Source: an uncultured Ectothiorhodospiraceae bacterium
GTDB lineage: Bacteria > Pseudomonadota > Gammaproteobacteria > Nevskiales > Oceanococcaceae
Assembly: GCA_937141935.1 (NCBI GenBank)
Contig: CAKZQS010000042.1
Span: 1-64,000, forward strand
Length of the DNA: 64,000 bases
Direction: 5' to 3'
A model generated the notes under the pieces. That model was not told the origin of the DNA. It saw nothing but the letters and a program-made list of their open reading frames with translations, and ran no database searches. Positions 22,692-64,000 of this stretch are shown here, in pieces; positions within the stretch are counted from its first letter, which is position 1; every line of letters begins with the position of its first letter. The position numbers and the translations under genes were made by a program.

Positions 22692-24914
22692 ATGAGCGCA
22701 CCGCAACCGCTCGGCGGGCCGGTCGAGTACGCCCGCGACGATGTCGATCTCGGCGAGCTGCTGGATATCCTGCTGGAGGGCAAGTGGCTGATTCTGGCCG
22801 CCACGCTGCTGACCCTGCTGCTGGGGTTGGTCTACGCCGTGCTGGCCACGCCGATCTACGAGGCCGATGCGTTGGTCCAGCTGGAGGGGGAGTCCAGCAG
22901 CCTGGGCGCCGTGTTCGGCGAAATGGGCGATGTGCTCAGCGAATCCTCCGAGGCGACCGCCGAAATCGAGCTGATCAAGAGCCGGCTGGTGCTGGGGCGC
23001 ACGATCGAGCAGCTCGAGCTCGATACCGTAGCCCGGCCGGTCTACTTCCCGCTGATCGGCCAGGGGGTCGCCCGGCTCGCCGCCCGCGACGTTGGCCCGG
23101 CCAAACTCCTGACGCAGTTCTTCATTGGCCCCTACGCCCAGGGTGAGGAGGACATCACGCTGGGCCGTTTCGAAGTGCCGGACGGGCGCCTGGGCGAAAG
23201 CTTTTACCTGCAGGCCGGCGAAACCGAGGGCAGCTACGCGCTGTGGCTGAACGAAGAGGAATCGGTTGTTGGCCGCGTGGGCGAAACGTTGCGCGTTGAG
23301 GGGCGCGACATCGTCATTCAGGTGCAAAGCCTGCGCTCGCCGCCCGGCCACCGGTTTGAGGTCAAGCGCCGCGACATGCTGAGCGCGATTGCCAGCCTCC
23401 GCGAGAACCTGAGCGTGGCCGAGAAGGGCAAGGACAGCGGCATTATCAGCCTGCGCCTGCAGCACCCGGATCCGGAGCGGGCGCAGCGCATCCTCAATGC
23501 CATTGCCAACAACTACCTGCGGCAGAACGTCGAGCGCAAGGGCGAGGAGGCCGAACAAACGCTGAAGTACCTGCAGCAGCAGCTGCCGGCGCTGCGCGCC
23601 CGGCTGGAGGCCTCCGAGGTGCAGCTCAACGCCTACCGCACCCGCCAGGGCAGTGCCGACCTGCTGCAGGAAACCCAGCTGTTGCTGCGCCAGAGTGCCG
23701 AGCTTGAGGCCCTGCGGCTGACCCTGGCGCAGGAGCGCGAGCAGCTGCTGCAGCGCTTTCAGCCGGGCCACCCCAGCGTGCAGGCGCTGGACGCCCAGTT
23801 GCGCGACCTCGAGCAGAACCGCACCGGGCTGGAGTCCGAGATCCGCGACCTGCCGGAAACCCAGCAGGAGCTGCTGCGGCTGACCCGCGACGTCCAGGTG
23901 AACACCGAGCTGTACACCTCCCTGCTGAACAGCGCGCAGCAGCTCGAGGTAGCGAAGGCGGGCACGGTGGGCACCGTGCGTATCGTCGATTACGCCGGTC
24001 GTCCGCGCGAGCCGGTCAAGCCCAAGCGCAAGCTGATTCTGATGCTGTCGCTGATGCTGGGGGCCTTCCTGGGCCTGGCCGCCGTGTTCGTGCGGCGGGC
24101 GCTGTTCTCCACCATCGATGATCCGCAGAGCTTCGAGGCCCATTTCGGCCTGCCCGTGTTCGCCAATATTCCGATCAGCAAGGTCCAGAAGACCATGTTC
24201 GGCAAGGTCAACCAACTGGCGCCGGGCCTGCATACCCTGCAGCGGCGTACGGCGGACGACCCGGCGCTGGAGGCGCTCAAGAGCCTGCGCACCGCCTTGC
24301 ACTTCGGCATGCACGAGGCCCAGAACAACATCGTGCTGATCACCGGGCCGCGGCCCGGGCTGGGCAAGAGCTTCGTGGCCGCCAACCTGGCCTCAACGAT
24401 CGCGTCGGCGGGCAAGTCGGCCGTGGTTGTGGACGGCGATATGCGGCGCGGCACCGTGCACACCTACGCCGGCATCAAGCGCAAGCCGGGTCTGAGCGAT
24501 GTGCTCAGCGAGCGTGCGACGCTGGACGAGGCCCTGCGCCCCACCGAGCAGGAGGGGCTGATGGTCTTGCCCACCGGCACGCTGCCGCCCAACCCCAGCG
24601 AGTTGCTGTCGACACCCGTGTTCCACGAGCTGCTGCAGGAACTGCGCACCCGCTTTGACGTTGTCTTGATCGACAGTCCACCAAATTTGGCCGTGGCGGA
24701 CGCCAATATCCTCGCGCAGATCGCTGGCACCACCTTGCTGGTACTGCGTGCGGATTTGCACCCGCCTCGCGAGGTGGCCGAGTCCATCAAGCGGCTGAAG
24801 ATGGTGGGCGCGAATGTCCGCGGGGCCATCTTCAACATGGTGCGTTATCAGGCCCGCCGCTACGGCTATGGGCGCTATAACTACCACTACGGCTATGGAA
24901 AGGCGAAAAGTTGA
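22692..24914 (+). CDS. wzc: Wzc-type polysaccharide co-polymerase and tyrosine kinase
   Basis: This 740-residue inner-membrane protein has an N-terminal Wzz domain with a membrane helix (WLILAATLLTLLLGLVYAVL), a long periplasmic coiled-coil region, a second helix (LILMLSLMLGAFLGLAAVFV), and a cytoplasmic BY-kinase domain. The latter shows Walker A GPRPGLGKS (Lys559), Walker A' VVVDGDMRRG and Walker B VLIDSPP. The C-terminus is a tyrosine cluster (ARRYGYGRYNYHYGYGKAKS), the autophosphorylation tail. Phosphorylation cycles of this tail control chain length and export through Wza. Confidence 0.96.
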   Translation: MSAPQPLGGPVEYARDDVDLGELLDILLEGKWLILAATLLTLLLGLVYAVLATPIYEADALVQLEGESSSLGAVFGEMGDVLSESSEATAEIELIKSRLVLGRTIEQLELDTVARPVYFPLIGQGVARLAARDVGPAKLLTQFFIGPYAQGEEDITLGRFEVPDGRLGESFYLQAGETEGSYALWLNEEESVVGRVGETLRVEGRDIVIQVQSLRSPPGHRFEVKRRDMLSAIASLRENLSVAEKGKDSGIISLRLQHPDPERAQRILNAIANNYLRQNVERKGEEAEQTLKYLQQQLPALRARLEASEVQLNAYRTRQGSADLLQETQLLLRQSAELEALRLTLAQEREQLLQRFQPGHPSVQALDAQLRDLEQNRTGLESEIRDLPETQQELLRLTRDVQVNTELYTSLLNSAQQLEVAKAGTVGTVRIVDYAGRPREPVKPKRKLILMLSLMLGAFLGLAAVFVRRALFSTIDDPQSFEAHFGLPVFANIPISKVQKTMFGKVNQLAPGLHTLQRRTADDPALEALKSLRTALHFGMHEAQNNIVLITGPRPGLGKSFVAANLASTIASAGKSAVVVDGDMRRGTVHTYAGIKRKPGLSDVLSERATLDEALRPTEQEGLMVLPTGTLPPNPSELLSTPVFHELLQELRTRFDVVLIDSPPNLAVADANILAQIAGTTLLVLRADLHPPREVAESIKRLKMVGANVRGAIFNMVRYQARRYGYGRYNYHYGYGKAKS

Positions 24915-25008
24915 CGTAAGCTAGGGCCAGACCACGGTTTGGTGGGTCGGGACCGGGACACGTGGACCGGTACAAAATCGAATAAACGCGGCTGGGGGGC
25001 CGGCGCGC

Positions 25009-25767
25009 ATGGATACGATCCGGAGCCTCGATACAGGCGAGGCGGTGAGTCGGACGGATGCGGGAATTCTGGCGCTGGCGCTGGAGTCCCCCGTGATGCA
25101 GCAGGCGGAGGGCCTGCATGCCGACGTTCCTACCTATGACACCGCGCCCTTCTGGCGGCCCTACGATGGACTCAAGCGCGGCTTGGACATCGTGGGTAGC
25201 GCCTTGTTGATCCTGCTGTTTCTGCCGGTTTTTATCGTCATACCGCTGGTCTTGATGACGCAGGGTGGCGCGCCGGTGTACCGGCAGTTGCGCGTGGGCC
25301 GCGGCGGGCGCATGTACACCATGTTCAAGTTCCGCACGATGGTTCGGGATGCCGACAAGGTGCTGGGCGATTATTTGCGCGACCACCCGTCCGCGGCCGA
25401 GGAATGGACCAGCTTCCAGAAGCTGCATGACGACCCGCGAATCACGCGCTTTGGCATGTTCCTGCGCCGCACCAGCCTGGACGAGCTGCCGCAGTTCTTC
25501 AACGTGCTGCTGGGCGACATGAGCCTGGTGGGCCCGCGGCCCTTGTTTATCCCGCAAAAAGCGCATTTCGGGCGGCAACTTCCGGCCATCCTGGCCTGTC
25601 GCCCGGGCATCAGCGGCCTGTGGCAGGTCAGCGGCCGCAGCGATCTGACCTTTGCCGAGCGTGTCCCGCTCGACGTCTATTACGTCAAGCGCCGGAGCCT
25701 GTGGCTGGATCTGCGCATTATCGTTTTGACGCCCCTGGCCATGTTCGTACGCCGCGACGGCGTTTGA
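25009..25767 (+). CDS. Undecaprenyl-phosphate sugar phosphotransferase (WbaP/WcaJ catalytic type)
   Basis: This 252-residue protein is a bacterial sugar transferase. It attaches the first sugar-1-phosphate to undecaprenyl phosphate in the inner membrane. It has only the catalytic half of WbaP: one membrane hairpin (DIVGSALLILLFLPVFIVI), FKFRTM, the RRTSLDELPQFFNVLLGDMS block, LVGPRPL, and PGISGLWQVSGRSDLTFAERV. The acidic 45-residue N-terminal extension is unusual. The gene is separated from wzc by 94 nt, so it may have its own promoter. Confidence 0.93.
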   Translation: MDTIRSLDTGEAVSRTDAGILALALESPVMQQAEGLHADVPTYDTAPFWRPYDGLKRGLDIVGSALLILLFLPVFIVIPLVLMTQGGAPVYRQLRVGRGGRMYTMFKFRTMVRDADKVLGDYLRDHPSAAEEWTSFQKLHDDPRITRFGMFLRRTSLDELPQFFNVLLGDMSLVGPRPLFIPQKAHFGRQLPAILACRPGISGLWQVSGRSDLTFAERVPLDVYYVKRRSLWLDLRIIVLTPLAMFVRRDGV

Positions 25768-25831
25768 GCCGCCGCGTCAAGGTTTATCCGATCGCCTAGT
25801 TGACCTGCGTGGGCGGGTCCGCACCGCCCCT

Positions 25832-26659
25832 ATGAGCCAGCAGCAGCCAGACTTCGTGATCGTGGGGGCCATGAAGGCCGGGACGACCTCGCTCTATGCC
25901 GAGCTGGCACGCCACCCCGGCGTTTTTCTGCCCGCCGACAAGGAGCCGGAGACGCTGGTGAGCTGCGGCGATGACCTTGCCCGTGTTCGCGCCGATTACG
26001 CCTCCCTGTACGCGCCGGCCGCCGCGGGGCAGTTGTGTGGTGAGGCCTCGACGGCCTACACCAAACGCCCGCAACACGAAGACGTGGCCCAGCGTGCCCT
26101 CGCCTTGTGCGAGGGTCGGCTTAAGGTCATTTATCTGCGCCGCGAGCCCATAGGCCGCATGGTGAGCCAGTACTGGCACGAGCAGGGCCGCGGCGAGCAG
26201 CCCAAGGCCCTGGCCGAGGCCCTGCTGACGGACCCCCGCTACGTCGACTACAGCCGCTACGACTGGCAGATTGCCCCCTGGAAGGCGGCCTTCGGTTCGT
26301 CGCAGGTCCTGGAGCTTGAATTCGAGGCGCTGGTGGCCGAACGCGAGGCCACGCTGCGCCGGGTGGCCCGTTTTCTGGATATCGACCCGGAGCCGCTGCT
26401 CGCGGCGCCCGCGGCGCGAGCCAATGTCAGCGCCGGCAAGCCCACGCCGCGCGGTTGGCTGCGCCGTGTCATCGAATCGCGCTGGTACCGGCGCCAGGTC
26501 AAATCGCGCCTGCCTCAGGGTGTGCGCGAGCGGTTGAAGCATTGGTTGAGCCCCAAGGCGCGGGTGCGGCAGATCGAGTTGGACGACGCGACGCGGCAGA
26601 CGCTGTTGCAACGGCTGGCACAGGCGCCGGCGTCCGCCACGGCGGCGCAGTCGCCATGA
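25832..26659 (+). CDS. Sulfotransferase (first of four)
   Basis: This 275-residue cytoplasmic enzyme is a PAPS-dependent sulfotransferase. It has the 5'-phosphosulfate-binding loop VIVGAMKAGTTSLY (Lys15), the 3'-phosphate-binding strand KVIYLRREPIGRMVSQYWHE, and FEALVAEREATLRRVARFLDI. The substrate is probably a sugar in the polymer made by this locus, since the flanking genes are polysaccharide genes. Its stop overlaps the start of the flippase gene by 4 nt. Heparan-sulfotransferase-like family members share this layout. Confidence 0.9.
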   Translation: MSQQQPDFVIVGAMKAGTTSLYAELARHPGVFLPADKEPETLVSCGDDLARVRADYASLYAPAAAGQLCGEASTAYTKRPQHEDVAQRALALCEGRLKVIYLRREPIGRMVSQYWHEQGRGEQPKALAEALLTDPRYVDYSRYDWQIAPWKAAFGSSQVLELEFEALVAEREATLRRVARFLDIDPEPLLAAPAARANVSAGKPTPRGWLRRVIESRWYRRQVKSRLPQGVRERLKHWLSPKARVRQIELDDATRQTLLQRLAQAPASATAAQSP

Positions 26660-27891
26660 GGCGGCGGCTGCTCGGCGCCTTTGGCGCAGGCCTGCTGTCG
26701 CGCTTGCTGCAGTTTGCTGTTGCGGTCCTGCTGGCACGGGCAATCGGCCCCGAGGGCTTTGGCGCCTTTGTCTTTGCAACAGGGGCGGCCTTGGTCGGGG
26801 CCCAGCTGGCAGGCCTGGGCTGGCCGATGCTGTCGCAAAAGCACATCGCCGGTATGCGTGGCACCGGCGAACAGCGCGGCTTGCGCGAGCTGGCCGGGAG
26901 TGCGGAGCTGACCCTCTTGCTCAGCGCCTGCTTGCTGGCCGTGCTGCTGGCCGCGGTCAGCCTGTCCCTGGCCGACACGGCCCTGCGCAGTGGGTTGCTC
27001 GCGACCGCTGGCCTGCTGCCGCTGGTGGCCTGGCGCAAGCTGCGCCGGCAGCAGTTGCTGGGGCTGTCGCGCCCCGCGCTGGGGCTGAGTGTGGACGATG
27101 TGCTGCCGCCCACACTGGTGCTGTTGGCCGTGGCTCTGGGCCTGGCCGGCGGTGCGGGCTCGGCGCTGTTCGCCTATGGGGCAGGCAGCATGCTGGCGGT
27201 GGTGCTGGGCAGCGTCGTGCTCTTGCGCGCGATTGGACGCCCGCGGCTGGCGCCGTGGTCGCGCTGGCGGTCGTGGAGTGGCGAAGCGCTGCCCATGATG
27301 CTTGGCGGCCTCAGCAAGGTCGCGCTGGCCCGTGCCGATGTGCTGTTGCTCGCCCCGCTGGCGTCCCTGGCCGAGGTCGGGCTGTACGGCGTGGCCTACC
27401 GCCTGACCTATCTCTTTACCTTCCCGCAGGTCATTGTGGGCGCGGTGTACGGGCCCCGCATTGCCGCCGCGCACGCGCGCCGGAACTGGCGGCAGCGGCA
27501 GCGCCTGCAGGCCACGGCCTACCGCTTCGCCCTGCTCAGCGTCGTTCCGCTGGCCATCGCCTTGGTGTGGCTGCGCGAGCCTGTGCTCGGGCAGCTCTTT
27601 GGCGAGCCCTATCGGGAGGCAGCCGCCGTGCTGGCTGTTCTGTGCCTGGCGCAGACATTGGGGGCGCTCGCTGTGCCTTTGGGGAACTACCTGTTGATGA
27701 CCGGCGGGGAGGTGCGATATTCGCAGCTGAACACCATTGCCGCGGTGATCAATGTCGGTCTGAACCTCGCGCTGATTCCGCGTTTCGGGGCGCTGGGCGC
27801 CGCGCTGGCCCTGACGGTATGCAACGCGGGCGTATGGTGCGCCGAGTGGCTACTGGTTCGTCATTCACACCGGCGTGCCGAATCCTCATGA
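26656..27891 (+). CDS. Wzx-like polysaccharide flippase
   Basis: This 411-residue protein is a polytopic inner-membrane protein of the MATE/MVF-like polysaccharide transport family, with about 11-12 membrane helices and the family start LLSRLLQFAVAVLLARAIGPEGFG. It probably flips the undecaprenyl-linked repeat unit to the periplasm. A typical late motif is NVGLNLALIPRFGALGAALA. The ATG overlaps the previous stop (ATGA), and the next gene overlaps its own stop by 4 nt, so translation is coupled. Confidence 0.9.
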   Translation: MRRRLLGAFGAGLLSRLLQFAVAVLLARAIGPEGFGAFVFATGAALVGAQLAGLGWPMLSQKHIAGMRGTGEQRGLRELAGSAELTLLLSACLLAVLLAAVSLSLADTALRSGLLATAGLLPLVAWRKLRRQQLLGLSRPALGLSVDDVLPPTLVLLAVALGLAGGAGSALFAYGAGSMLAVVLGSVVLLRAIGRPRLAPWSRWRSWSGEALPMMLGGLSKVALARADVLLLAPLASLAEVGLYGVAYRLTYLFTFPQVIVGAVYGPRIAAAHARRNWRQRQRLQATAYRFALLSVVPLAIALVWLREPVLGQLFGEPYREAAAVLAVLCLAQTLGALAVPLGNYLLMTGGEVRYSQLNTIAAVINVGLNLALIPRFGALGAALALTVCNAGVWCAEWLLVRHSHRRAESS

Positions 27892-28967
27892 GCAGCGTGC
27901 CCCCGCCTCCGAAGTGGTTGTTCGCAGGCCCGCTGCCGCCACCCGTGCACGGGCAGGCGATTGCCACCTCCCGGCTGCAACAGGCCTTGACCCCGCATCT
28001 GCGGCTTGAGGTGCTGGATACCGCCGCCGGCGGTCGCGGCGCCTGGCCGCGTATTGGGGCGCACTGGGCGTTGCTGCGCCGCTGCCTGGAGCGGCGCGGC
28101 GTTCGCCTCTACCTGTCGCTCAACGCAAACGCGGGGATGGTGCTCAGCGTGGTCATCGCGATTGCGGTGTTGCTCCGTGGTGGACGTGTGGTGCTGCACC
28201 ACCACAGCTTTGCGCATATTCGCCGGGCCCGGATGATCCTGCGTCCGCTGGGCCTTGCGGCGGAGCGGGTGTTGCACCTCACGCAGTGCCCCCGGATGGG
28301 CGCGCTGCTCCAGGCCCAATACGGTGGCTGGCGCTGCGCAAGCCTGCACAACGCAGCCTTGGTCGATCCCGCCCTGCGCCAGTTGCCGCTGCGCGGCGCC
28401 GGGCCAAAGCTGGTGCTGGGCCACCTTGCGAACTTGTCCGAGGAGAAGGGCCTAACACGAGCCCTGCAGGCCTTTGTCGCCTTGCGCGACGCCGGCTATG
28501 ACGCGCAGCTTTTGCTCGCAGGACCTGCGGTGGATGAACACGCACAGGGCGTCCTGCGCCAGGCCTGCTCCGCGCACCCGGAGCACGTGCGCTGGATGGG
28601 GCCGCTGAATGTCGAGGGCAAGCGAGAGTTCTTCGCGGCCATCGACGTTTTTTTGTTCCCGAGCCTGTACCGCAACGAGACGCAGGGAATCGTGAACCTT
28701 GAGGCGATGGCTGCCGGCGTGCCGGTCATCGCAATCGATCAGTGCTGCGTGGGTGCCGACATCGGTCAGGATGGTGGCGCGGCGGTCGCGAATGCGGATG
28801 AATTTGATGCCGCGCTTCTGCACTTCGCCGCGGCTTTGCGGCAAGATTCCCAGGAGGCTGCGGCGCGTGCACGCCGGCGCTTCGATGAGCTGTTGGTGCA
28901 GGCCGACGAAGATCTGCAGGCCTTGTTGCGTGTGATGGGCGCGGCCGACTTACACGAGGATTGCTGA
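27888..28967 (+). CDS. Glycosyltransferase family 4 protein
   Basis: This 359-residue enzyme is a GT-B fold glycosyltransferase: N-terminal GPLPPPVHGQAIATSRLQQ and a C-terminal GT1/GT4 domain with NLSEEKGLTRALQAF and the E-x7-E motif ETQGIVNLEAMAAGVPVIA. It adds one sugar of the repeat unit at the cytoplasmic face. The start ATG overlaps the stop of the flippase gene. Donor and acceptor cannot be told from sequence. Confidence 0.9.
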   Translation: MSSVPPPPKWLFAGPLPPPVHGQAIATSRLQQALTPHLRLEVLDTAAGGRGAWPRIGAHWALLRRCLERRGVRLYLSLNANAGMVLSVVIAIAVLLRGGRVVLHHHSFAHIRRARMILRPLGLAAERVLHLTQCPRMGALLQAQYGGWRCASLHNAALVDPALRQLPLRGAGPKLVLGHLANLSEEKGLTRALQAFVALRDAGYDAQLLLAGPAVDEHAQGVLRQACSAHPEHVRWMGPLNVEGKREFFAAIDVFLFPSLYRNETQGIVNLEAMAAGVPVIAIDQCCVGADIGQDGGAAVANADEFDAALLHFAAALRQDSQEAAARARRRFDELLVQADEDLQALLRVMGAADLHEDC

Positions 28968-28970
28968 GCC

Positions 28971-29864
28971 ATGTTTGTCCAGAGTCGGCGACTGCGTGCC
29001 GCGGCCCTGCCGCTGCTCGCGCTGAAGTCGCGACTGACCCACCGCGATCACGGGCCGCGAATCCTGGTGGTGTCGATGCCCAAGAGCGGAACGCACCTGG
29101 TCACCGGCCTGCTGCACCAGATTCCCGGGGTCAGCCTGGGCTATAGCCACCTGACGCTGCCGCAGTGCTATGCATCGCGAGAGGGCGGGTCGGGCATTGC
29201 GCCGCGACTGGACGTCATCGCGCGTGAGTTGGCGAGGCTGCGTGGCGGGCAAGCGGCGTCGTGTCACTTCCCCTACGACACCGAACTCGACACATGGCTG
29301 CACGAGAATGAGGTCCGGGTCATATTCGTGGCCCGTGACCCACGCGAAGTCCTGATCAGCCAGGTCAATTACGTGCTGCACCTGGAGCGCCATCCGCTGC
29401 ACGAAGCGATTCGCTCGCGCCTGACCACGACCGAAGAGCGTCTGCGATTTTTCCTGCATGGCCAGGACGACCTGGAGGAATGGCGTGACCCGGGCGCTGG
29501 CCCTTACCTGCAGAATCGTATGCCTTCGCTGTGCGAACGCGCGCAAGACTATAGCGGGTGGTTCACGGCTCGCAGCTCGCTATCACTCGATTTCTCGGAG
29601 CTTGTCGGTGCGCAGGGCGGTGGCGAACAGTCGCAACGCCTGGCGGCGCTGGAACGCATCGCCAATTTCGTCGATAAGCCCTTGTCGGAGCGCGCGCTGC
29701 AGAAAGTTTCGGCGGAGGCCGAGCAGGCTTTCAGTCCAACGAAATTTCGAGGTCAAACAGGTGGGTGGTCGCGGGGTATTTCAAGCGAGCTGGCTTCGGA
29801 AATCGACGCCGCCATCGCTCCGCTGAGCTGCGTTCCGGGGTGGGCCGCGGTGATTAAAGACTGA
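28971..29864 (+). CDS. Sulfotransferase (second of four)
   Basis: This 297-residue protein has the classic PAPS-binding loop VVSMPKSGTHLVTGLLHQ (Lys38) and the 3'-phosphate strand VIFVARDPREVLISQVNYV, followed by SLDFSELVG. This is closer to the eukaryotic cytosolic-type (Sulfotransfer_1) pattern than the first copy. It sits 3 nt after the glycosyltransferase gene. The polymer or a lipid-linked precursor is the likely substrate. Confidence 0.88.
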   Translation: MFVQSRRLRAAALPLLALKSRLTHRDHGPRILVVSMPKSGTHLVTGLLHQIPGVSLGYSHLTLPQCYASREGGSGIAPRLDVIARELARLRGGQAASCHFPYDTELDTWLHENEVRVIFVARDPREVLISQVNYVLHLERHPLHEAIRSRLTTTEERLRFFLHGQDDLEEWRDPGAGPYLQNRMPSLCERAQDYSGWFTARSSLSLDFSELVGAQGGGEQSQRLAALERIANFVDKPLSERALQKVSAEAEQAFSPTKFRGQTGGWSRGISSELASEIDAAIAPLSCVPGWAAVIKD

Positions 29865-29871
29865 CCCTGCA

Positions 29872-31164
29872 ATGAGAATAGGCAGGTCGCTCGCAAATCT
29901 GGCTGCGCTCGGGGCACTGTCTACAGCGCCATTGGTTTGGGTGCGCCCGCCAGCCCTCGGGGGCGCATCGTTGTTGATTGTATTCCTTGGTTTGCTCCTG
30001 GTTGCAACGATACTGCGCTACTCCTCTGTACTAGCGTTGCTAAGGGAGTGGCCGCACGCCGCGCTCTCTGTTGCTGCCTTCATTCTGGCCGCGGCGATGA
30101 GTCAATTGCACTCTCCACCCGCATATACGGTTTCTGATGTATTGCGTCAGGGCTTTTACGCGTGTGCGATGCTCGCTATGGCGGTCTGGTTTGCTGGCGC
30201 CAAAGAACACGAATTGGGGCGGGCTGCGTACGTCGCCCCGGTGTCTGTGGCTCTGGTGGTGCTGTTTTTTCTCGCGGGAGGGGCTACCGGTGGGTTGAAT
30301 CTTGCCGCCGTGCTGTGGAGGGGCGTGCAGGCTGCCGATCCGCAGATCATTCAGCACGGTGTTTTTAGGGCTGTATTCGCCGTCACATCCGAGGACGCTC
30401 AGACGAATTGGCGCCATCACATGGTGTCTGGTCTGCTACTCGGCGCGTTTGTGTCGCTGATGCTCCGCTCCTATCTCTTTTCGCGGATCGGTCGTTTGGT
30501 GAGCGCAATTGGCGTGCTGTGCTGCGTGTTGCTGGTCGTCCTTTCGCTAAGCCGCGCCATCATGGTTGCGGCGGCGCTAGCATTAGTAGTGGTGATGTGC
30601 GGGCTTCTGATCGCACGGAGCGGTCAGCGCGCGCGTCTATTGGCGCTGGGGGGGGCGGCACTTTGCGCGGGCGCGCTGCTGCTGACGCCCTTGGGCGATC
30701 TCGTGGCGGCACGCTTCTTCGCTCAGGATCAGAGCGCTTCCTACGAGGCGCGATTTGAAACGCTTGCCGCTGGCGCAGCGCTGATCGAGAAAAACCTTTT
30801 GGTCGGAGGTGCCGCGACCTATGAGCGTGATATGCACAACGTGGTCCTGCAGCACTGGATCGGCTTTGGCCTCATTGGGCTTTTGGCGGCGCTCAACTTT
30901 GTCTTGCTAATCATCCTGGTCGCATCTCGCTTGTTCATCCTCGCTGTGGTGAAGGCGGGCCGGGCGAATACCGCTTTGTTGTTAGCGTCCGCACTTCTGG
31001 CACTGCCATTCGTGCGGGCATTCACGGCGGGCGGTGGCCTTGGCGGAGCAGAGTGGCTCTGTATTGGCGTTAGCATTGGAGTGCTGACGCGATCCACACC
31101 CAAGAGTGGTCAACCTTTGTACCCCGGATTGGATGTGAAACCCTCGGGCGGAACGGCGCGATGA
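29872..31164 (+). CDS. Wzy/WaaL-like O-antigen polymerase or ligase
   Basis: This 430-residue polytopic inner-membrane protein has about 10-12 helices. A large soluble loop (about residues 160-190) contains VTSEDAQTNWRHHMVSGLL, and LSLSRAIMVAAALALVV is a typical Wzy_C/WaaL helix. It probably polymerises the undecaprenyl-linked repeat units (Wzy) or ligates the chain. Base composition is visibly lower in GC than in the neighbours, as often seen for polymerase genes. The next gene overlaps its stop by 4 nt. Confidence 0.82.
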   Translation: MRIGRSLANLAALGALSTAPLVWVRPPALGGASLLIVFLGLLLVATILRYSSVLALLREWPHAALSVAAFILAAAMSQLHSPPAYTVSDVLRQGFYACAMLAMAVWFAGAKEHELGRAAYVAPVSVALVVLFFLAGGATGGLNLAAVLWRGVQAADPQIIQHGVFRAVFAVTSEDAQTNWRHHMVSGLLLGAFVSLMLRSYLFSRIGRLVSAIGVLCCVLLVVLSLSRAIMVAAALALVVVMCGLLIARSGQRARLLALGGAALCAGALLLTPLGDLVAARFFAQDQSASYEARFETLAAGAALIEKNLLVGGAATYERDMHNVVLQHWIGFGLIGLLAALNFVLLIILVASRLFILAVVKAGRANTALLLASALLALPFVRAFTAGGGLGGAEWLCIGVSIGVLTRSTPKSGQPLYPGLDVKPSGGTAR

Positions 31165-31856
31165 GCATGGTGTCGTTGAAACACCACCCGACGGTCTTTC
31201 GTTTATTAGCGCCGAGGCGGGAAAGGGCGCCTTACGAGAGACGAGTGATTCGTCCGCTTGACGATACCCTGATTGAGGGCTTTCCACGGTCCGCAAATAC
31301 CTACGCCGTCGAAGCTTTTCGGCTGCTGCAGAACCGCCAATGTGCCATTGGCAATCACTTTCACAATCCGGCGCAGTTCGCACTTGCGGAGCGCTATGGA
31401 CTGCCGGCGATGTTGCTGCTGCGCGAGCCCGAAGGTGCCGTGGTGTCGTTCGCGGCTTATCAGGCCACGGGCGTACGGCCCGCCTTGCAGGCCTACATCC
31501 GCTTCCACGCGCCCTTGCTGCGGCGTATGCGCAGCTTCGTTGTGGCCCCTTTTGAGGAGGTCACCAGCGACTTTTCCCGCAGCATTGCGCGGCTCAACGC
31601 CTGCTTTGGCTGCGACTTCGCCCATCGCCCGCTGAGCGATGCCGACGACGCGCAGATTCGCGAGGCCATCCACGCCAAGCGGGCGCGCATTGCGGCGGCC
31701 CGGGGCCAGCTGCCGGCTGCGACACTGACGCTGCCCAGCGCGGACAAGGCCGATCAGCAGGAGCGCCTGCGCACGCAGTATTCCCAGGCACCGGCGGCGC
31801 TGCGCGAGCAAGCCCAAGTGCTGCATGCGCGGCTGCATGAGTCGGCGCGTGACTGA
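31161..31856 (+). CDS. Sulfotransferase-like protein (third of four)
   Basis: This 231-residue protein is shorter than most sulfotransferases. It has a P-loop-like sequence IEGFPRSANTYAVEAF (residues 38-53) in the place of the PAPS loop and MLLLREPEGAVVSFAAYQ as the 3'-phosphate strand. Lys is replaced by Arg43 in the loop, a pattern found in some bacterial members. The C-terminal part is helical and charged. It is coupled to both neighbours by overlapping stop and start codons. Activity is less certain than for the other three copies. Confidence 0.75.
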   Translation: MSMVSLKHHPTVFRLLAPRRERAPYERRVIRPLDDTLIEGFPRSANTYAVEAFRLLQNRQCAIGNHFHNPAQFALAERYGLPAMLLLREPEGAVVSFAAYQATGVRPALQAYIRFHAPLLRRMRSFVVAPFEEVTSDFSRSIARLNACFGCDFAHRPLSDADDAQIREAIHAKRARIAAARGQLPAATLTLPSADKADQQERLRTQYSQAPAALREQAQVLHARLHESARD

Positions 31857-32772
31857 GCTGCTGTACATCGGCGGCGTGGGGCGCAGCGGCTCGACGGTGC
31901 TCGAGATGCTGCTGCACCGCAGTGGCCATTTTCGGGCCCTGGGTGAGGTGGCGATCATCGACTCGCCGACCATTGCCGAAGACCCGCTCTGCTCCTGCGG
32001 CGAGCGATTCAGCCGCTGCCCCTACTGGAGCTGTGTTCTGGCCTCCGACCGCCTGGCACCGCAGCAGCGCGAGCAGGGCGTGGCGGCGCTGCGTCGGCAC
32101 TACCGCCTGCGCCATTACCTGCCGCGGCTGCTGTGGCCGCGCATGGGCGCGAGCGCGCCGGCCGAGCTTGCGCGTGCCCGTCAGTACCTGGCCCGGCTGT
32201 ATGCGGCGGCGGCGGCCTGCGCCCCGGGTGAGCGACTGCTGGACGGCAGCAAGCATCCGGCCCGCGCGCTGGCGCTGGCGCAAACGCCTGGCCTGCAACT
32301 GTGGGTGCTGCATCTGGTGCGTGACCCCCGGGCGGTGGTGCACTCCTGGGCTAATCCCAAGTACAACCCGGGCCTGGGGCGGCCCATGCGGCGCTACTCA
32401 CTGCTGGTCGCCAGCGGCAAGTGGCTGCTGGAGAACCTGCTGACTGAGCTGTTGCGCTGGCGCGGCTGCGCGGTGATGCGGCTACGTTATGAAGACCTCG
32501 TGAACCAGGATGCAGCGGCACTTGCGCGCCTGGCGCACTTTGTTGGCCTGGACGAAGGTGCCTTGCGGATGGCGCTGGGCGCCGAACCGGGTGCGGCTGT
32601 GCGAAGCGGGGATTACCACAGCCTTGCCGGTAACCCCATCCGCTTCGGCGACCAAGCGCTCGCGTTGCGCCGCGACGAGCGCTTTCGCACCGCGATGCCG
32701 CCCTGGCGCCGGCTCGTGGTGTTGCTGCTGACCGCGCCGCTGGCGCTGCGCTATGGCTACCTGCGGCCGTGA
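31837..32772 (+). CDS. Sulfotransferase (fourth of four)
   Basis: This 311-residue protein has the loop YIGGVGRSGSTVLEMLLH, a cysteine cluster DPLCSCGERFSRCPYWSC typical of one bacterial sulfotransferase group, and VLHLVRDPRAVVHSWANPK as the 3'-phosphate strand, then LRYEDLVNQ. ATG codons at 31825 and 31837 and a GTG at 31849 are all possible starts; none has a good ribosome binding site, and I chose 31837. It overlaps the previous gene by 20 nt, and the next gene starts within its stop codon. Confidence 0.88.
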   Translation: MSRRVTELLYIGGVGRSGSTVLEMLLHRSGHFRALGEVAIIDSPTIAEDPLCSCGERFSRCPYWSCVLASDRLAPQQREQGVAALRRHYRLRHYLPRLLWPRMGASAPAELARARQYLARLYAAAAACAPGERLLDGSKHPARALALAQTPGLQLWVLHLVRDPRAVVHSWANPKYNPGLGRPMRRYSLLVASGKWLLENLLTELLRWRGCAVMRLRYEDLVNQDAAALARLAHFVGLDEGALRMALGAEPGAAVRSGDYHSLAGNPIRFGDQALALRRDERFRTAMPPWRRLVVLLLTAPLALRYGYLRP

Positions 32773-58289: not shown

Positions 58290-58406
58290 GCCCGTATAGC
58301 CCCAATCGAGTCGCTAATCTTGGGCTGTCGCCATTCTGCGACTTTGCTCAGCCGGCGCCCGTGCCGAGGTGTATGATCGGCATGGGGATAAGGGGAAGGA
58401 CCGGCC

Positions 58407-58430
58407 ATGATCGCGTCGCCGCTGCGATGA
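58407..58430 (+). CDS. Seven-codon leader ORF
   Basis: ATG-ATC-GCG-TCG-CCG-CTG-CGA-TGA encodes MIASPLR. It is preceded by the very strong ribosome binding site AAGGGGAAGGA (58390-58400) at 6 nt. Its TGA stop overlaps the ATG of the signalling kinase gene (ATGA at 58427-58430). Its role is inferred: coupling or attenuation of kinase translation. It may also be accidental. Confidence 0.45.
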   Translation: MIASPLR

Positions 58431-61400
58431 GCGCAGACCGTCCGGTAGCGTCTGCGACACCCGCGCAAAGTGGGGCTGGGCAAGCCAGCCGCTCCCGCGA
58501 CGCCGACGCCACGGTTGACGCCGAGCGCCGCCTCTCGGCCGTCGTTTTTCTCGATATGGTCGGCTACAGCCGACTCATGCAACTTAGCGAGGAGCAGGCT
58601 GAGGCGGCCGTACTCGAACTTTGGGGCATTGCGCGGCCCGCGCTGGCCGCGCGCCAGGGCGAGGAGGTTCGCCTCTTCGGCGACGGCATGCTCGCGATTT
58701 TCGACAGCGCGCTTAACGCCGTTCGCTTTTGCCTGAAGGTGCTGCACGAGCTGGCACAGCGCAACGCACGGCCCGACGTGGGCGAAAAACTCTTCGCGCG
58801 CGCGGGCGTGCATCTGGGTGACGTTGCGCGCCGGGATGGCGAAATCTATGGCGACGGCGTCAACATCGCGGCGAGGCTGGTCGGCGTGGCACCGCCGGGA
58901 GCCGCGGTCATCAGCGCGCATGTCCACGATCAGATTCGCAACGTGCTGGAGCATCCGGTGCGCAGCCTGGGCGTCAAGCGCTTGCACAACATCGCGCTGC
59001 CGCTGGAGCTGTTCTGCCTCGCGGGCCCGGACTGCGATTCCGCTGCCATCAGCGTGGCGGCGGAAACGACCGAGGCCCAGGCACGCATCTGGCACATCGC
59101 CAATGCGCGATTCGATGAACGGCGCCGCACGCTGCGTCTGAACGGCGATGACTTCGAGCTCGAGCCTGGGGCACACGCAGTCCTCCTTGCGTTGCTGAAC
59201 AATGCCGGCGAGACCGTGACCCACGAGGAGTTGCAGGAGGCCGTCGGCGATGGCGCGGGCTCGAGCGTTGCACGGCGCATCGCTCGTCTACGTGCCGCCC
59301 TGGGAGATTCGCGTCGGCAGAAAATCGTGTCCCAGCCCGGTGTGGGGTACCGCTTGGTTGAGCCTGTTCGCGTTGAGTCGGCACCCGAGCGGTTGCTGAC
59401 GCGATTTGATTTCTCGCCCGGCGACCACCCACCTCTACGTCCGCTGTGGCGCCTCGAACGGCTCCTGGGTCGCGGGGGGCAGGGCGAGGTCTGGCTGGCC
59501 CGGCACGCCAAAACCGGCGAGCTTCGGGTGTACAAGTTCGCCTTGGATAGCGACCGGCTCGGGTCGCTCAAGCGCGAAATTACCCTTTCGCGCCTGCTCA
59601 GCCGGATCGCGGATGCGCACTATTTCATTCGCGTACTCGACTGGAATCTCGAGCGCCCGCCATTTTTTCTGGAATGCACCTACGGCGGCCACTCCCTGCC
59701 CGAATGGGTTCGCGCGCGCGGTGGATTGGCAGCCACGCCCCTGCGCGAACGCATTGCCATCGTGGCCCAGGCGGCCGAGGCGCTGGCGGCGGCGCACTCC
59801 ATCGGTGTGCTCCACAAGGACCTGAAGCCGGACAATGTTCTGATTCGCGAGACGCCGGATCAGGCGCTTGAGGTTCGGCTTGCCGACTTTGGCAGTGGCG
59901 GGCTGGTTGATGCGCGCCGTCTTGCCGAAGCCGGCATCACGGACATGGGTTTCAGCCGTTCGGCCGTGCTGGACGAGCGCACGGCGGGTACCGCTGTCTA
60001 CTGCGCCCCGGAACGCTTCGCCGGGCACCTGGCCACCGTCCAGGCCGACGTCTATGCCCTCGGCGTCATGCTGTATCAGATTGTTGTCGGCGACCTGCGC
60101 AAGCCGCTGTCTATGGGCTGGGAAGCAGAAATCGACGACGAGCTTCTGCGCGAGGACATCGCCCTTGCCGCGCATGGCGATCCCGCGATGCGGCTGGCCG
60201 ACGTGGCGGATGTCGCCCGCCGCCTGCGCACTCTGCCGGAGCGCCATGCGCAGCGCCAAGAGCGGCATGCACAGCAACGACGTGCGGCGGCCGCAGCCCT
60301 CGCCGCGCAGGAGGCGAGTCGCGAACTCGCGATGTTGCGCACGCGCAGGCGCTTCAGCGTCGCATTTACCAGCGCCTTGCTACTCGGCTTGGGGCTGGCC
60401 TTGTACCAGCAGCAACGGGCGGAGCGCGCCGCCGAGCAAGCGGTAGCCTCTGCGCGCGAGGCCCAGGCCGTGGCGGACTTTCTCGCCCAGGATTTGTTCA
60501 CGTCTGTCGGGCAAGCACCGCTGCGGTCGCTGTCGATCAGCGCGCTGCTGGAGCGCGGTATCGAGAAGCTGGGCCAGCGTCATGAGCAGCTTCCGGTCGT
60601 GGGCGCGCAGCTCTATTACTCGCTTGGCAATGCGGCGCTGGCCGTGGAGAACCTCGCGCTGGCTGGTCACGCCTATGAGGAGGCCCTGCGCAACTACGAA
60701 AACGCCGGCCAACTTGGAACTGCGGCCGCCGTGCGCGTCGCGGCTCAGCTATTGAGAATTCAGGAGGGCGAGGGTGCCAAGTTGCCTGGTCGGCTGCCAC
60801 GTTTTCAGCAGGTCTTTGCCGAGGGTATCGCCCACCTGGGCGATGGCCAGGCCGACGTGCTGGCGCTGCAGCGTCAGTTGGCCGAGGCCCAGTGGACGCT
60901 GGGCCACTGGAAGCTTGCTGCCGAGCAGATGGAGTTGGTGTGGGCCCGCGCCGACGGCGCGCGTTCTGGCGCCGCTGACGTTTTTGATGGTGTGGAGAAT
61001 CGCCTTGCTTTGTTGTGGTTGCAGCTCGGTGAGTATCCGCGTGCGGAAGCTCTATTGCGCGGGAGATTGCGGGAGGCGCGCCAAAGTGGCCTACCGACCC
61101 TTCACGTCGCTGCCTTGCAGACAACTCTCGCGAGTCTCCTGACTGAGCTTGAGCAGTTTCTCGAAGCTGAGGCACTGCTGAGCTCGTCTTTGGAAGCGCT
61201 GCGAGACTGGGTGGCCGACGATAGCAGCTTCATGGTGCAGTCCGTCCTTGTTCATCAGGCATGGCTCCGCTTGAAGCAAGGCCGCACGTCCGAGGCCGTT
61301 AACCTGTTCCGTGGAGTATTGGAGGTTTTGAATTCAGAGCCGTTGCTAGCTCGCTCGGCGGTTGCCGGCGATATTCGCAGCCGGCTGGCACTCGCGTACT

Positions 61401-61789
61401 TTGCCACTGGGGAGCGAGCGGCTGCGGAGCGTGCGCTGCGGCACGCTCTCGACATCCAGGTCGAGTCCATGGGCGAAAAGTCGCCTCAGGCGCAAATAAG
61501 TCGTTGTTGGTTGGTCGACTTTCTGTTGGAACAAGGCATGACCGCAGAGGCCGAAACCACGTTGTCCAGAGTGGACCGGCGCAGTCTGGCCGCCATTGGG
61601 CCCGATCACCCCTACAGCGCTGAACTCGCCCGCGTGACCGCGCGGCTGCGGGCGGCGCAGGGACAGCGCGAGGATGCCGCCCGCTGGATGCGCGAAGCGA
61701 TCCGCATTTATGCGCTGCGCTATGACAATGATCACAGCGCGCTGCGAAACGCGCACGCAACACTGCAAGCCTACGGGGACGGGGGATAG
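58427..61789 (+). CDS. Membrane signalling protein: cyclase, winged helix, Ser/Thr kinase and TPR
   Basis: This 1120-residue protein has five parts. Residues 36-195 are a class III nucleotide cyclase (metal Asp43 in VVFLDMVGYS and Asp86 in LFGDG; Asn146 and Arg150 in GDGVNIAARL). Residues 220-315 are an OmpR/CadC-type winged helix (GVGYRLVEP at its end). Residues 342-606 are a Ser/Thr kinase: Gly loop LLGRGGQGEVWLARH, Lys370, HKDLKPDN with Asp465, DFG with Asp487, APE. A membrane helix follows at about 642-662 and then TPR-like repeats, probably periplasmic. The cyclase has Arg82 and Glu139 at positions normally Lys and Asp. The radical SAM gene follows after 5 nt. Confidence 0.88.
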   Translation: MSADRPVASATPAQSGAGQASRSRDADATVDAERRLSAVVFLDMVGYSRLMQLSEEQAEAAVLELWGIARPALAARQGEEVRLFGDGMLAIFDSALNAVRFCLKVLHELAQRNARPDVGEKLFARAGVHLGDVARRDGEIYGDGVNIAARLVGVAPPGAAVISAHVHDQIRNVLEHPVRSLGVKRLHNIALPLELFCLAGPDCDSAAISVAAETTEAQARIWHIANARFDERRRTLRLNGDDFELEPGAHAVLLALLNNAGETVTHEELQEAVGDGAGSSVARRIARLRAALGDSRRQKIVSQPGVGYRLVEPVRVESAPERLLTRFDFSPGDHPPLRPLWRLERLLGRGGQGEVWLARHAKTGELRVYKFALDSDRLGSLKREITLSRLLSRIADAHYFIRVLDWNLERPPFFLECTYGGHSLPEWVRARGGLAATPLRERIAIVAQAAEALAAAHSIGVLHKDLKPDNVLIRETPDQALEVRLADFGSGGLVDARRLAEAGITDMGFSRSAVLDERTAGTAVYCAPERFAGHLATVQADVYALGVMLYQIVVGDLRKPLSMGWEAEIDDELLREDIALAAHGDPAMRLADVADVARRLRTLPERHAQRQERHAQQRRAAAAALAAQEASRELAMLRTRRRFSVAFTSALLLGLGLALYQQQRAERAAEQAVASAREAQAVADFLAQDLFTSVGQAPLRSLSISALLERGIEKLGQRHEQLPVVGAQLYYSLGNAALAVENLALAGHAYEEALRNYENAGQLGTAAAVRVAAQLLRIQEGEGAKLPGRLPRFQQVFAEGIAHLGDGQADVLALQRQLAEAQWTLGHWKLAAEQMELVWARADGARSGAADVFDGVENRLALLWLQLGEYPRAEALLRGRLREARQSGLPTLHVAALQTTLASLLTELEQFLEAEALLSSSLEALRDWVADDSSFMVQSVLVHQAWLRLKQGRTSEAVNLFRGVLEVLNSEPLLARSAVAGDIRSRLALAYFATGERAAAERALRHALDIQVESMGEKSPQAQISRCWLVDFLLEQGMTAEAETTLSRVDRRSLAAIGPDHPYSAELARVTARLRAAQGQREDAARWMREAIRIYALRYDNDHSALRNAHATLQAYGDGG

Positions 61790-61794
61790 ACGCC

Positions 61795-62772
61795 ATGCAA
61801 ATCGGCTTCATGCTGACGGATCGCTGCAATATCAGCTGCGACCATTGCGACGCGAGCTGTGGCCCGGATAAGACTGGCCTTTTGCCCAGTCATGCCATCC
61901 AGCGCCTGATGCGTGAAGCATCCGGCGTGCAGTCGGCCAAGCCGCTGGAGATTTGCTTCAGTGGCGGCGAGCCCTTTCTGGATTTTCCGCGGCTCGAATC
62001 GCTGGTGCGTGCGGGGCAGGAGCTCGGTGCGACCGTAACCTGTGTCAGCAACGCCTCGTGGGCGAGTAGCGACGAGAAAGGCCTACGACTCCTGGGCCGG
62101 CTGCAGCGGGCCGGGCTGAGCGCGCTCGCGGTCAGCAGCAGTGGCTTTCACCAGCAGTTCGTGCCCCGCAGCCGGGTGGAGCGTGCGCTGCGCATTGCCC
62201 ACGAGTTCGGCATCCAGGCCCACCTGAAGCTGGTGTATCGCCGTTCCGAAGAGGACTCGGAGCTGGTGGACTGGGCGCGTTCGCTGCCGAACTGTCGTTT
62301 GCAGCGGATTCCGCTGATGCCCCACGTGCGCAAAGGACTGCATCTGCCGGACAGTGAGTTTCCCGCCCGCAATCAGGGGTCGGAAGGACGGTGCCCAGGA
62401 GCCTCGCTCAGCATTCGCGAAACTGGGGAGGCTTATATGTGCTGCACCCCAGGGGCATTTACCGATTTCCATTCCTTAGGCGATGCCACCGCAGTGCCTC
62501 TGGCGGAAATTCAGCGCGGCTTCGACTACGGCAGCGTGCAGCAGATACTGCGCCAACACGGGCCCAGCTATTTTCTCGATGCGATACGTGCGACCGGGCA
62601 TGCCGATCGCCTGCGCGAGGATTACGCCGGGCCCTGCGACCTCTGCACCCATATCGCTGGCGACCCCTGTCTGGCCGGCATCGCGAGAGATGTGGCTCGG
62701 CAAGAGGCACGCGGGCAGCTGGCGAAAGTGTTCGATGCGTTGGCCAGTCCAGCGCCTGTTCCGACGGCTTGA
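61795..62772 (+). CDS. Radical SAM peptide-modifying protein with twitch/SPASM-like region
   Basis: This 325-residue protein has the radical SAM motif C11-x3-C15-x2-C18 (TDRCNISCDHC) plus Cys22, and SGGEP. The C-terminal part has C200-x10-G211-x4-C216, the first element of SPASM/twitch domains, then Cys217 and C281-x2-C284-x7-C292. Such proteins hold a second iron-sulfur cluster and modify peptides: epimerisation, thioether or carbon-carbon crosslinks. The peptide gene lies 31 nt downstream, and the signalling kinase gene 5 nt upstream. Which reaction it performs cannot be read from sequence. Confidence 0.85.
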   Translation: MQIGFMLTDRCNISCDHCDASCGPDKTGLLPSHAIQRLMREASGVQSAKPLEICFSGGEPFLDFPRLESLVRAGQELGATVTCVSNASWASSDEKGLRLLGRLQRAGLSALAVSSSGFHQQFVPRSRVERALRIAHEFGIQAHLKLVYRRSEEDSELVDWARSLPNCRLQRIPLMPHVRKGLHLPDSEFPARNQGSEGRCPGASLSIRETGEAYMCCTPGAFTDFHSLGDATAVPLAEIQRGFDYGSVQQILRQHGPSYFLDAIRATGHADRLREDYAGPCDLCTHIAGDPCLAGIARDVARQEARGQLAKVFDALASPAPVPTA

Positions 62773-62803
62773 GCCGCCGTCCGAGGCTAGAGAGGAGTAC
62801 ACC

Positions 62804-63055
62804 GTGAACGAGATTGATATCCAAAAACTGCGCAAGGCGGCCGAAGACGAAGACTTCATGCGCCACCTTCTTGCCGACCCAGAGCAGGCGGCCGCGGGCC
62901 TTGGCATTCAGCTGCCACAGGAGGCGGTCGAGAGCCTGCGACAAGCGGCGAAGGATGTGATTTATCAGAGCAAGCTGCCAGACGAGTTCGAACTCTTCGT
63001 CATTAAACCCGTGTGGCTGAGCCATCCTTCGTCCATGCCTGGCGGCGATGACTGA
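62804..63055 (+). CDS. Candidate RiPP precursor peptide, NHLP/Nif11-like leader (83 aa)
   Basis: This 83-residue peptide starts with GTG after AGAGGAG (6 nt). Residues 8-50 match a helical leader of the NHLP/Nif11 type: LRKAAEDEDFMRHLLADPEQ, then GLGIQLPQEAVESL. Residues about 52-83 would be the core, with Tyr54, Phe62, Phe65, Trp71 and PVWLSHPSSMPGGDD at the end. There is no cysteine, which excludes thioether and thiazole products. No GG or GA cleavage motif is visible between leader and core. The stop overlaps the start of the serine hydrolase gene. It is assigned by context and leader pattern, without a database search. Confidence 0.72.
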   Translation: MNEIDIQKLRKAAEDEDFMRHLLADPEQAAAGLGIQLPQEAVESLRQAAKDVIYQSKLPDEFELFVIKPVWLSHPSSMPGGDD

Positions 63056-64000
63056 AGCCACGGTTCGCTCACTTCCTGCGGGGGTGTGCGAACTGCGCCG
63101 TGGGGCCCGACGTGGGTTGGGCGGCGCGCTGGTGGCGCTAAGCGTTGTGGCTGCATCCAACGTAGCTGCGGCGCCGCCCGTCTCCGCAAGCCCGATGGCG
63201 CACTTGACGATTCCCGGCGTGTCGCCGATACCGCTGACACCCTTGGCGCCGGCGGTCGGGACGCTCGAAGAATTCGTCACCAAGGTGATGCAAGCGCAGA
63301 TCACGAAGCACGGGGTGGTCGGCGCGGTGGTGGCGGTCGTCCATGATGGGGAGCTGTTGTTTGCAACCCCCTATGGCATGGCGGACTCGGCAAAGAAGGA
63401 GCTGGTCGATGCGGAGTCCACGCTGTTTCGACTGGGTTCGGTATCCAAGCTGTTCACCGCCACCGCGGTCATGCAACTGGTGGACCAGGACCTGTTGGAC
63501 CTGGATGCCGATGTGCGCCAATATCTGCCCACCGGCACGGTGCCGGTGCCGATGGAATTTGAGCCGCCGGTAACGCTCAAGAATCTGCTGACCCACACCA
63601 CCGGCTTCGAAGCCAATACGCTGGGTTATCTGCAAAAAAACCCTGCTCGAACGGGTGAGCCCTTCGGCGTGGTTCTGGCTGAGAACGCGCCCGCTCAGGT
63701 GCTGCCGCCGGTCACGGATTACGACGCTGCCCTGGGCGCGGCCTATAACAACTGGGCCATCGCGCTGGCCGGCTATGTGGTGCAGCAGGTCTCCGGCGTG
63801 CCCTTCGCGCAGTACATCGACGCGAACATTTTTGCACCCTTGGGTATGCAGCACAGCAGCTTTCGCGGCCCGCTGCCCGAGCGGTTGGCGACCAACCTGG
63901 CCACCGGCTATACGATGGATGAGCCACCCCAGCCGCGACCCTTCCAAAATTTTCAGGACATGATGCCGGCCGCCAGCCTGAGCTCCACCGGAGCCGATAT
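63048..64000 (+). CDS. Secreted beta-lactamase-fold serine hydrolase (partial)
   Basis: The frame is still open at the window end, so only the first 317 residues are seen. A signal peptide covers about residues 1-43 (RRGARRGLGG, then a hydrophobic stretch ending AAA). The catalytic set is S131-V-S-K134 (RLGSVSKLF) and Y233-N-N235 (the YxN motif), typical of class C beta-lactamases, esterases and D-aminopeptidases (PF00144 type). It overlaps the peptide gene by 8 nt, so it is made in fixed ratio to it and may process or degrade the peptide outside the cytoplasm. Confidence 0.88.
   Translation, partial: MTEATVRSLPAGVCELRRGARRGLGGALVALSVVAASNVAAAPPVSASPMAHLTIPGVSPIPLTPLAPAVGTLEEFVTKVMQAQITKHGVVGAVVAVVHDGELLFATPYGMADSAKKELVDAESTLFRLGSVSKLFTATAVMQLVDQDLLDLDADVRQYLPTGTVPVPMEFEPPVTLKNLLTHTTGFEANTLGYLQKNPARTGEPFGVVLAENAPAQVLPPVTDYDAALGAAYNNWAIALAGYVVQQVSGVPFAQYIDANIFAPLGMQHSSFRGPLPERLATNLATGYTMDEPPQPRPFQNFQDMMPAASLSSTGAD

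Follow-up and report, generated by a model that had tools for sequence, protein, structure and literature searches.

A putative kinase-coupled peptide operon with an EpeE-like radical SAM enzyme in a Nevskiales genome

Four adjacent genes at the end of the DNA analysed here (the window: 64,000 nucleotides, positions 1-64000 of contig C42 within a 3.57-Mb genome) probably form, with a likelihood that we put at roughly 55%, an epipeptide-like operon for a ribosomal peptide in a Gram-negative host, with a kinase coupling and a leader type of its own. The original prediction of a ribosomal-peptide system looks right in light of a conserved set of kinase, radical SAM and small genes, but its view that no named class matches is not supported: the radical SAM enzyme stands next to EpeE/YydG, and an NHLP precursor together with a large Ser/Thr kinase is known from Burkholderia (PMC2887384).

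Layout of the operon

The four genes, their domains and their motifs were placed as follows.

58427-61789, + strand: cyclase/winged-helix/Ser-Thr kinase/TPR protein, 1120 aa (Pfam; in-frame start)
58538-58936, + strand: class III cyclase domain, Guanylate_cyc, residues 38-170 (Pfam)
59150-59356, + strand: OmpR-type winged helix, Trans_reg_C, residues 242-310 (Pfam)
59453-60097, + strand: Ser/Thr kinase domain, Pkinase, residues 343-557 (Pfam)
about 60353-60406, + strand: candidate transmembrane (TM) segment, residues about 643-660 (hydropathy, borderline)
C-terminal part of the kinase protein, + strand: TPR region, to about residue 1107 (Pfam)
61795-62772, + strand: EpeE/YydG-like radical SAM protein, 325 aa (TIGR04078, PDB, predicted fold)
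61825-61848, + strand: radical SAM cluster motif CxxxCxxC (C11, C15, C18), invariant in five homologues
62440-62445, + strand: C216-C217, with C217 aligned to the EpeE hydrogen-donor Cys223 (alignment to 8ai1 and the C223A mutant chain 8ai3)
62635-62646, + strand: CDLC (C281, C284), putatively binding an auxiliary cluster together with C200 and C216, invariant in five homologues
62804-63055, + strand: putative precursor peptide, 83 aa, GTG start (NF038399 and TIGR03793, both under cut-off)
62975-63052, + strand: putative core LPDEFELFVIKPVWLSHPSSMPGGDD, following the leader match at a presumed boundary, with FV...WL as in YydF
63048-64000 in the window, to contig position 65108, + strand: S12 beta-lactamase-fold hydrolase, 686 aa (PF00144, E 4.9e-60)

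The tight coupling that had been claimed for these genes was borne out. All four lie on the + strand, with 5 nt between the kinase and radical SAM genes (61789/61795), 31 nt between the radical SAM and peptide genes (62772/62804) and an 8-nt overlap between the peptide and hydrolase genes (63048-63055); the end of the window cuts the hydrolase gene, which continues on the contig to 65108. The start first given for the kinase gene, 58407, was rejected because it lies in the wrong frame, which holds 19 stops. The in-frame ATG is at 58427, and a second in-frame ATG is found at 58373. An Rfam search near the operon returned no match, and a promoter and terminator scan gave no signal exceeding chance level. 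Across the cassette, third-position G+C ranges from 0.69-0.80, versus 0.94 in htpG, and a genome of the same genus (G065) keeps the M4 peptidase-htpG gene order without the cassette; together, these sequence comparisons suggest that the cassette was gained horizontally.

Elsewhere in the window, at 22692-32772, lie genes that are probably exopolysaccharide-related and sulfotransferase-like; in some of them third-position G+C falls below that of core genes, groEL and htpG among them. Just beyond the window, contig positions 74685-75773 (L004:16686-17774) encode a protein with curli-like repeats (NGSHNAATVDQVGS), whose gene lies downstream of one for a TonB-type receptor.

The radical SAM enzyme and the putative precursor

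Pfam places a radical SAM domain at residues 7-162 of the 325-aa protein, together with a weak SPASM match. Its best NCBIfam family is YydG (TIGR04078; E 6.1e-35, residues 6-287, nearly full length), and its score of 121 bits, where the cut-off is 300, makes the protein a relative outside the curated YydG family. When PDB sequences were searched, EpeE/YydG came first by a wide margin, both with the single sequence (E 2.7e-20) and with a profile (E 1.9e-37). An AlphaFold2 model was then generated from eight sequences (pLDDT 84.9), and structure comparison, alongside which Foldseek was also run, put EpeE at the top with a Z score of 26-27 over about 300 residues, followed by viperin at 17.8. By sequence and predicted fold, the enzyme belongs alongside the EpeE/YydG peptide epimerases. 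On the tree of radical SAM proteins, the five from Nevskiales group together in a single clade (93/94), which has a Chloroflexi-binned sequence as its neighbour and is separate from the EpeE clade.

The hydrogen-donor role of EpeE Cys223 has been reviewed (PMC8326336). We located this position with the help of mutant EpeE chains in the PDB, which allowed the window enzyme to be aligned at C217; EpeE Asp210 is replaced by Ser. The donor cysteine is missing in two of the five kinase-linked enzymes, where it is Ala in Solimonas (L006/L010) and Gly in Hydrocarboniphaga (L009/L013), both enzymes being otherwise well conserved. These replacements favour an alternative that we regard as rather doubtful, in which a ribosomal-peptide system uses the EpeE-like fold for another reaction, such as a cross-link or backbone cleavage, and epimerisation would be no more than one of several outcomes among the enzymes of the clade. 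The YydG score far under cut-off points the same way, as do the peptide breakage reported on mutation of the donor cysteine (PMC8326336) and the motif CAAxx[IVF]VxW, which is common to three otherwise divergent small proteins of other loci (0 in 20,000 shuffles of each) and whose cysteine the window peptide lacks. The window enzyme, however, retains the donor and cluster cysteines, and thioether links need a cysteine, of which the window peptide has none, excluding thioether (sacti-/ranthipeptide) chemistry for it.

The gene for this 83-aa peptide has GGAG 6 nt upstream of its GTG and a codon-position G+C of the coding type. Its leader-like residues 10-50 match the Os1348 family (NF038399; E 3.5e-8, 33.4 bits versus a cut-off of 40) and the NHLP family (TIGR03793; E 1.1e-6, 28.4 bits versus a cut-off of 50.9), so that the NHLP/Nif11-like leader described originally is real as a match to the Os1348/NHLP families but falls below their curated cut-offs. 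The C-terminal part, FELFVIKPVWLSHPSSMPGGDD, recalls the ...WYFVKSDKNRWIAGSAH of YydF in annotated epipeptide loci. A pattern covering both, FV-x(2,7)-W[ILV], was found in 0.25% of shuffles; since it was picked post hoc, with the window peptide and YydF already in view, the likeness to the YydF core is suggestive only. No YydF family match was found for the peptide in NCBIfam, and plasmid searches returned nothing matching it and only distant enzymes.

A further leader of this type was found on a Chloroflexi-binned contig of about 4 kb (L015), whose radical SAM protein is a more distant member (36-37% identity). Upstream of the radical SAM gene start at 2421, a gene at 1922-2152 encodes a 76-aa peptide that, with its start codon entered as M for the family search, scores 45.5 against NF038399 and so passes the cut-off of 40. 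No kinase was seen on these roughly 4 kb. It follows that enzymes near this branch have been paired with Os1348/NHLP leaders more than once.

Conservation in Nevskiales and the kinase protein

The radical SAM gene is rare, being found in 5 of the 85 genomes of the order (the window genome counted), with few relatives beyond Nevskiales and one gene of this EpeE-like kind per module-carrying genome. The homologues in the four other Nevskiales genomes show 34-45% identity, and the closest named carriers of the module, Solimonas, Nevskia and Hydrocarboniphaga, are placed in the same order and a different family, so that we regard the host as belonging to Nevskiales. Directly upstream of the radical SAM gene, a kinase of the same type is present at all four other loci, with a spacing of 6, 2 and -4 nt in three of them; the Nevskia MAG has a kinase frame that stops about 410 nt short, possibly through a frameshift. 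Downstream, counted from the stop codon of the radical SAM gene, the small genes of the five loci start at -3, +3, +3, +18 and +32 nt, +32 being the window locus. The neighbourhood comparison proposed in the original prediction thus found the small gene kept and the kinase paired with the radical SAM gene in 5/5 loci, and since both partners recur at 4/4 other loci, the kinase, radical SAM and peptide genes constitute a conserved module. A chance association of a widespread kinase paralogue with a solitary radical SAM gene and an open reading frame is highly improbable: such kinases are frequent in Nevskiales (up to 10 per genome), yet all five radical SAM genes, each the single such gene of its genome, follow a kinase gene and are themselves followed by a small gene, and the neighbourhood comparison already refutes coincidence. 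Heme peroxidase genes adjoin the small gene at three loci (L011:10865-12310, L012:11190-12308 and L013:11907-13415), the type being animal in L011 and, by similarity, in L012, and DyP in L013.

The small genes of the other four loci encode proteins of 111-140 aa with no precursor-family match, and across all five loci the identity between small proteins is 12-25%. Such strong divergence would suit a reading that we hold to be unlikely, namely that the small protein is a folded docking or regulatory partner and that the target of the radical SAM enzyme is some other protein, for instance the kinase protein or the hydrolase. It would also suit the absence of an exporter and the structure of Os1348 itself, a folded six-helix dimer (PMC7726476). 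Short peptides, however, are the substrates of EpeE-type enzymes, the radical SAM gene is always adjoined by a small gene, and L015 provides an independent NHLP-clan peptide.

The kinase protein is likely to have one membrane segment, which is borderline by hydropathy, the threshold of 1.6 not being reached. Its kinase motifs, namely the glycine loop, HKDLKPDN and DFG, appear intact in the sequence; in the cyclase domain, two candidate metal aspartates and VNIAAR are kept, and Arg replaces the usual Lys. Against the TOMM kinase/cyclase family (TIGR03903) the protein scores 58 bits, below the cut-off of 705.75. The Solimonas homologue has the winged helix and the kinase, with the cyclase absent from its best matches, and the homologues at the other three loci start at the winged helix. 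Because the homologous proteins are without it, the cyclase domain appears to be an extra of the window locus, and the phrase "driven by a membrane cyclase-kinase" was too strong. The secreted hydrolase had also been counted as a component; no homologue of it was found at the other four Nevskiales loci, and it was rejected as a core part. By these comparisons, neither the cyclase domain nor the hydrolase is part of the conserved module.

Paralogues of the kinase protein are present in each of eight genomes, at 1 to 10 per genome. All five radical-SAM-linked kinases fall within one 7-member clade (99/99) of the 26 paralogues. Mapping the linkage label on the kinase tree needs three changes, and 17/500 shuffles were equally good, so that linked kinases cluster, if imperfectly. 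No description of the winged-helix/kinase/TPR protein family was found in the open-access literature. One kinase of the linked clade lacks a neighbouring radical SAM gene; it is followed by a gene for a 176-aa protein that belongs to no known family (L105:5164-5694). On contig C40 of the window genome (L107:3230-8220), a second kinase paralogue is followed, 165 nt downstream, by a different S12-type hydrolase with a lipoprotein-like N-terminus.

Comparison with known systems and a possible mechanism

The epipeptide loci epeXEPAB/yydFGHIJ of Bacillus subtilis and other Firmicutes (PMC7026026, PMC8326336) share with the window an EpeE/YydG-type radical SAM enzyme with donor cysteine, a short hydrophobic core with FV...W[IL] and a membrane-linked hydrolase gene. 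The window locus differs from them in its leader, which is Os1348/NHLP-like and not that of YydF, in its kinase/winged-helix/TPR protein, in having an S12 hydrolase in place of the YydH protease, in its Gram-negative host and separate enzyme clade, and, by gene content compared with annotated YydF loci, in being without an ABC transporter. Proteusins with PoyD/OspD-type epimerases (PMC8326336) likewise combine an NHLP-type leader and a radical SAM enzyme, with D-residues proposed, whereas the window has an EpeE-type enzyme and a short leader under the NHLP cut-off and lacks the other proteusin enzymes. The Os1348 cluster of Pseudomonas sp. Os17 (PMC7726476) has a leader/small protein of the same family and similar length (85 aa), but acetyltransferase, peptidase-like and dehydrogenase-like genes, with no radical SAM or kinase gene reported. 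In the NHLP-TOMM clusters of Burkholderia (PMC2887384), an NHLP-type precursor adjoins a large Ser/Thr kinase, and TIGR03903 proteins join kinase and cyclase domains in one chain as in the window; there, TOMM heterocyclisation enzymes stand where the window has a radical SAM enzyme. In open-access text, we found no description of a kinase combined with an EpeE-like radical SAM enzyme and a peptide.

Other YydG-related enzymes were seen next to peptide genes. On L113, a leader-like peptide gene (910-1428; no NCBIfam match) with an Ala-rich repeated core (SSVADIATDAA) is followed by a YydG-related radical SAM gene (1432-2508) and a second SPASM-like protein; YydG-related radical SAM proteins thus occur in other Proteobacteria, with relatives in L112, L114 and a Tropicibacter plasmid (L061). 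A 76-aa peptide ending ALVKVTKIVVEI (L115:1185-1415), also with no NCBIfam match, is encoded 10 nt ahead of a YydG-like radical SAM gene.

The hydrolase of the window has a complete set of motifs, SVSK 131 (SxxK), YNN 233 (YxN) and HLG 376 (HxG), and hydropathy indicates an N-terminus of the signal type and, at the C-terminus, 3-4 TM helices. Its relatives in the PDB, many of them beta-lactamases and esterases, include an alkaline D-peptidase and ClbP. It resembles ClbP and other membrane-anchored S12 peptidases (PMC9889268) in the order of a periplasmic S12 domain and C-terminal TM helices. ClbP-type D-Asn prodrug peptidases, however, carry Ser/Thr at ClbP position 188 (PMC9889268), where the hydrolase has Asn (YNN). 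Because this specificity position differs, the reading as a ClbP-type D-Asn peptidase was rejected, and any D-residue preference of the hydrolase is a guess.

If the operon is epipeptide-like, its kinase/winged-helix/TPR protein would sense a signal via the TPR part and control the operon, and the Os1348/NHLP-type leader of the 83-aa precursor would act as the recognition element. By analogy with EpeE, the enzyme would act on at least one V/I/L residue of the core FELFVIKPVWLSHP, removing its C-alpha hydrogen, and Cys217 would donate a hydrogen to the opposite face, yielding D-residues. More speculatively, the S12 hydrolase, with its catalytic domain outside the cytoplasm and its C-terminal helices as anchor, might trim the peptide or protect the producer. 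The operon contains no exporter, and a search of the genome for a C39 peptidase transporter found none. The sub-threshold family scores, the loss of the donor cysteine in 2/5 enzymes and the missing exporter argue against the epipeptide-kind reading. A bolder idea, which we consider decidedly unlikely, is a self-contained Gram-negative D-peptide circuit encoded by a single operon and made up of a membrane sensor/kinase/DNA-binding regulator in one protein, a peptide, an EpeE-like enzyme that would introduce its D-residues and a hydrolase acting on the peptide, in which the peptide would be the regulator's own signal and not an exported antibiotic.

If the reading as an operon of the epipeptide kind is true, a kinase-coupled NHLP-leader branch in Gammaproteobacteria would widen the epipeptide class, whose clusters as named in PMC8326336 and PMC7026026 come from Firmicutes, and would provide an alternative leader for installing D-residues. 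The Solimonas and Hydrocarboniphaga enzymes are natural variants without the donor cysteine and bear on whether this cysteine makes EpeE an epimerase. The module would also, if so, be a first starting point for understanding the large winged-helix/kinase/TPR protein family.
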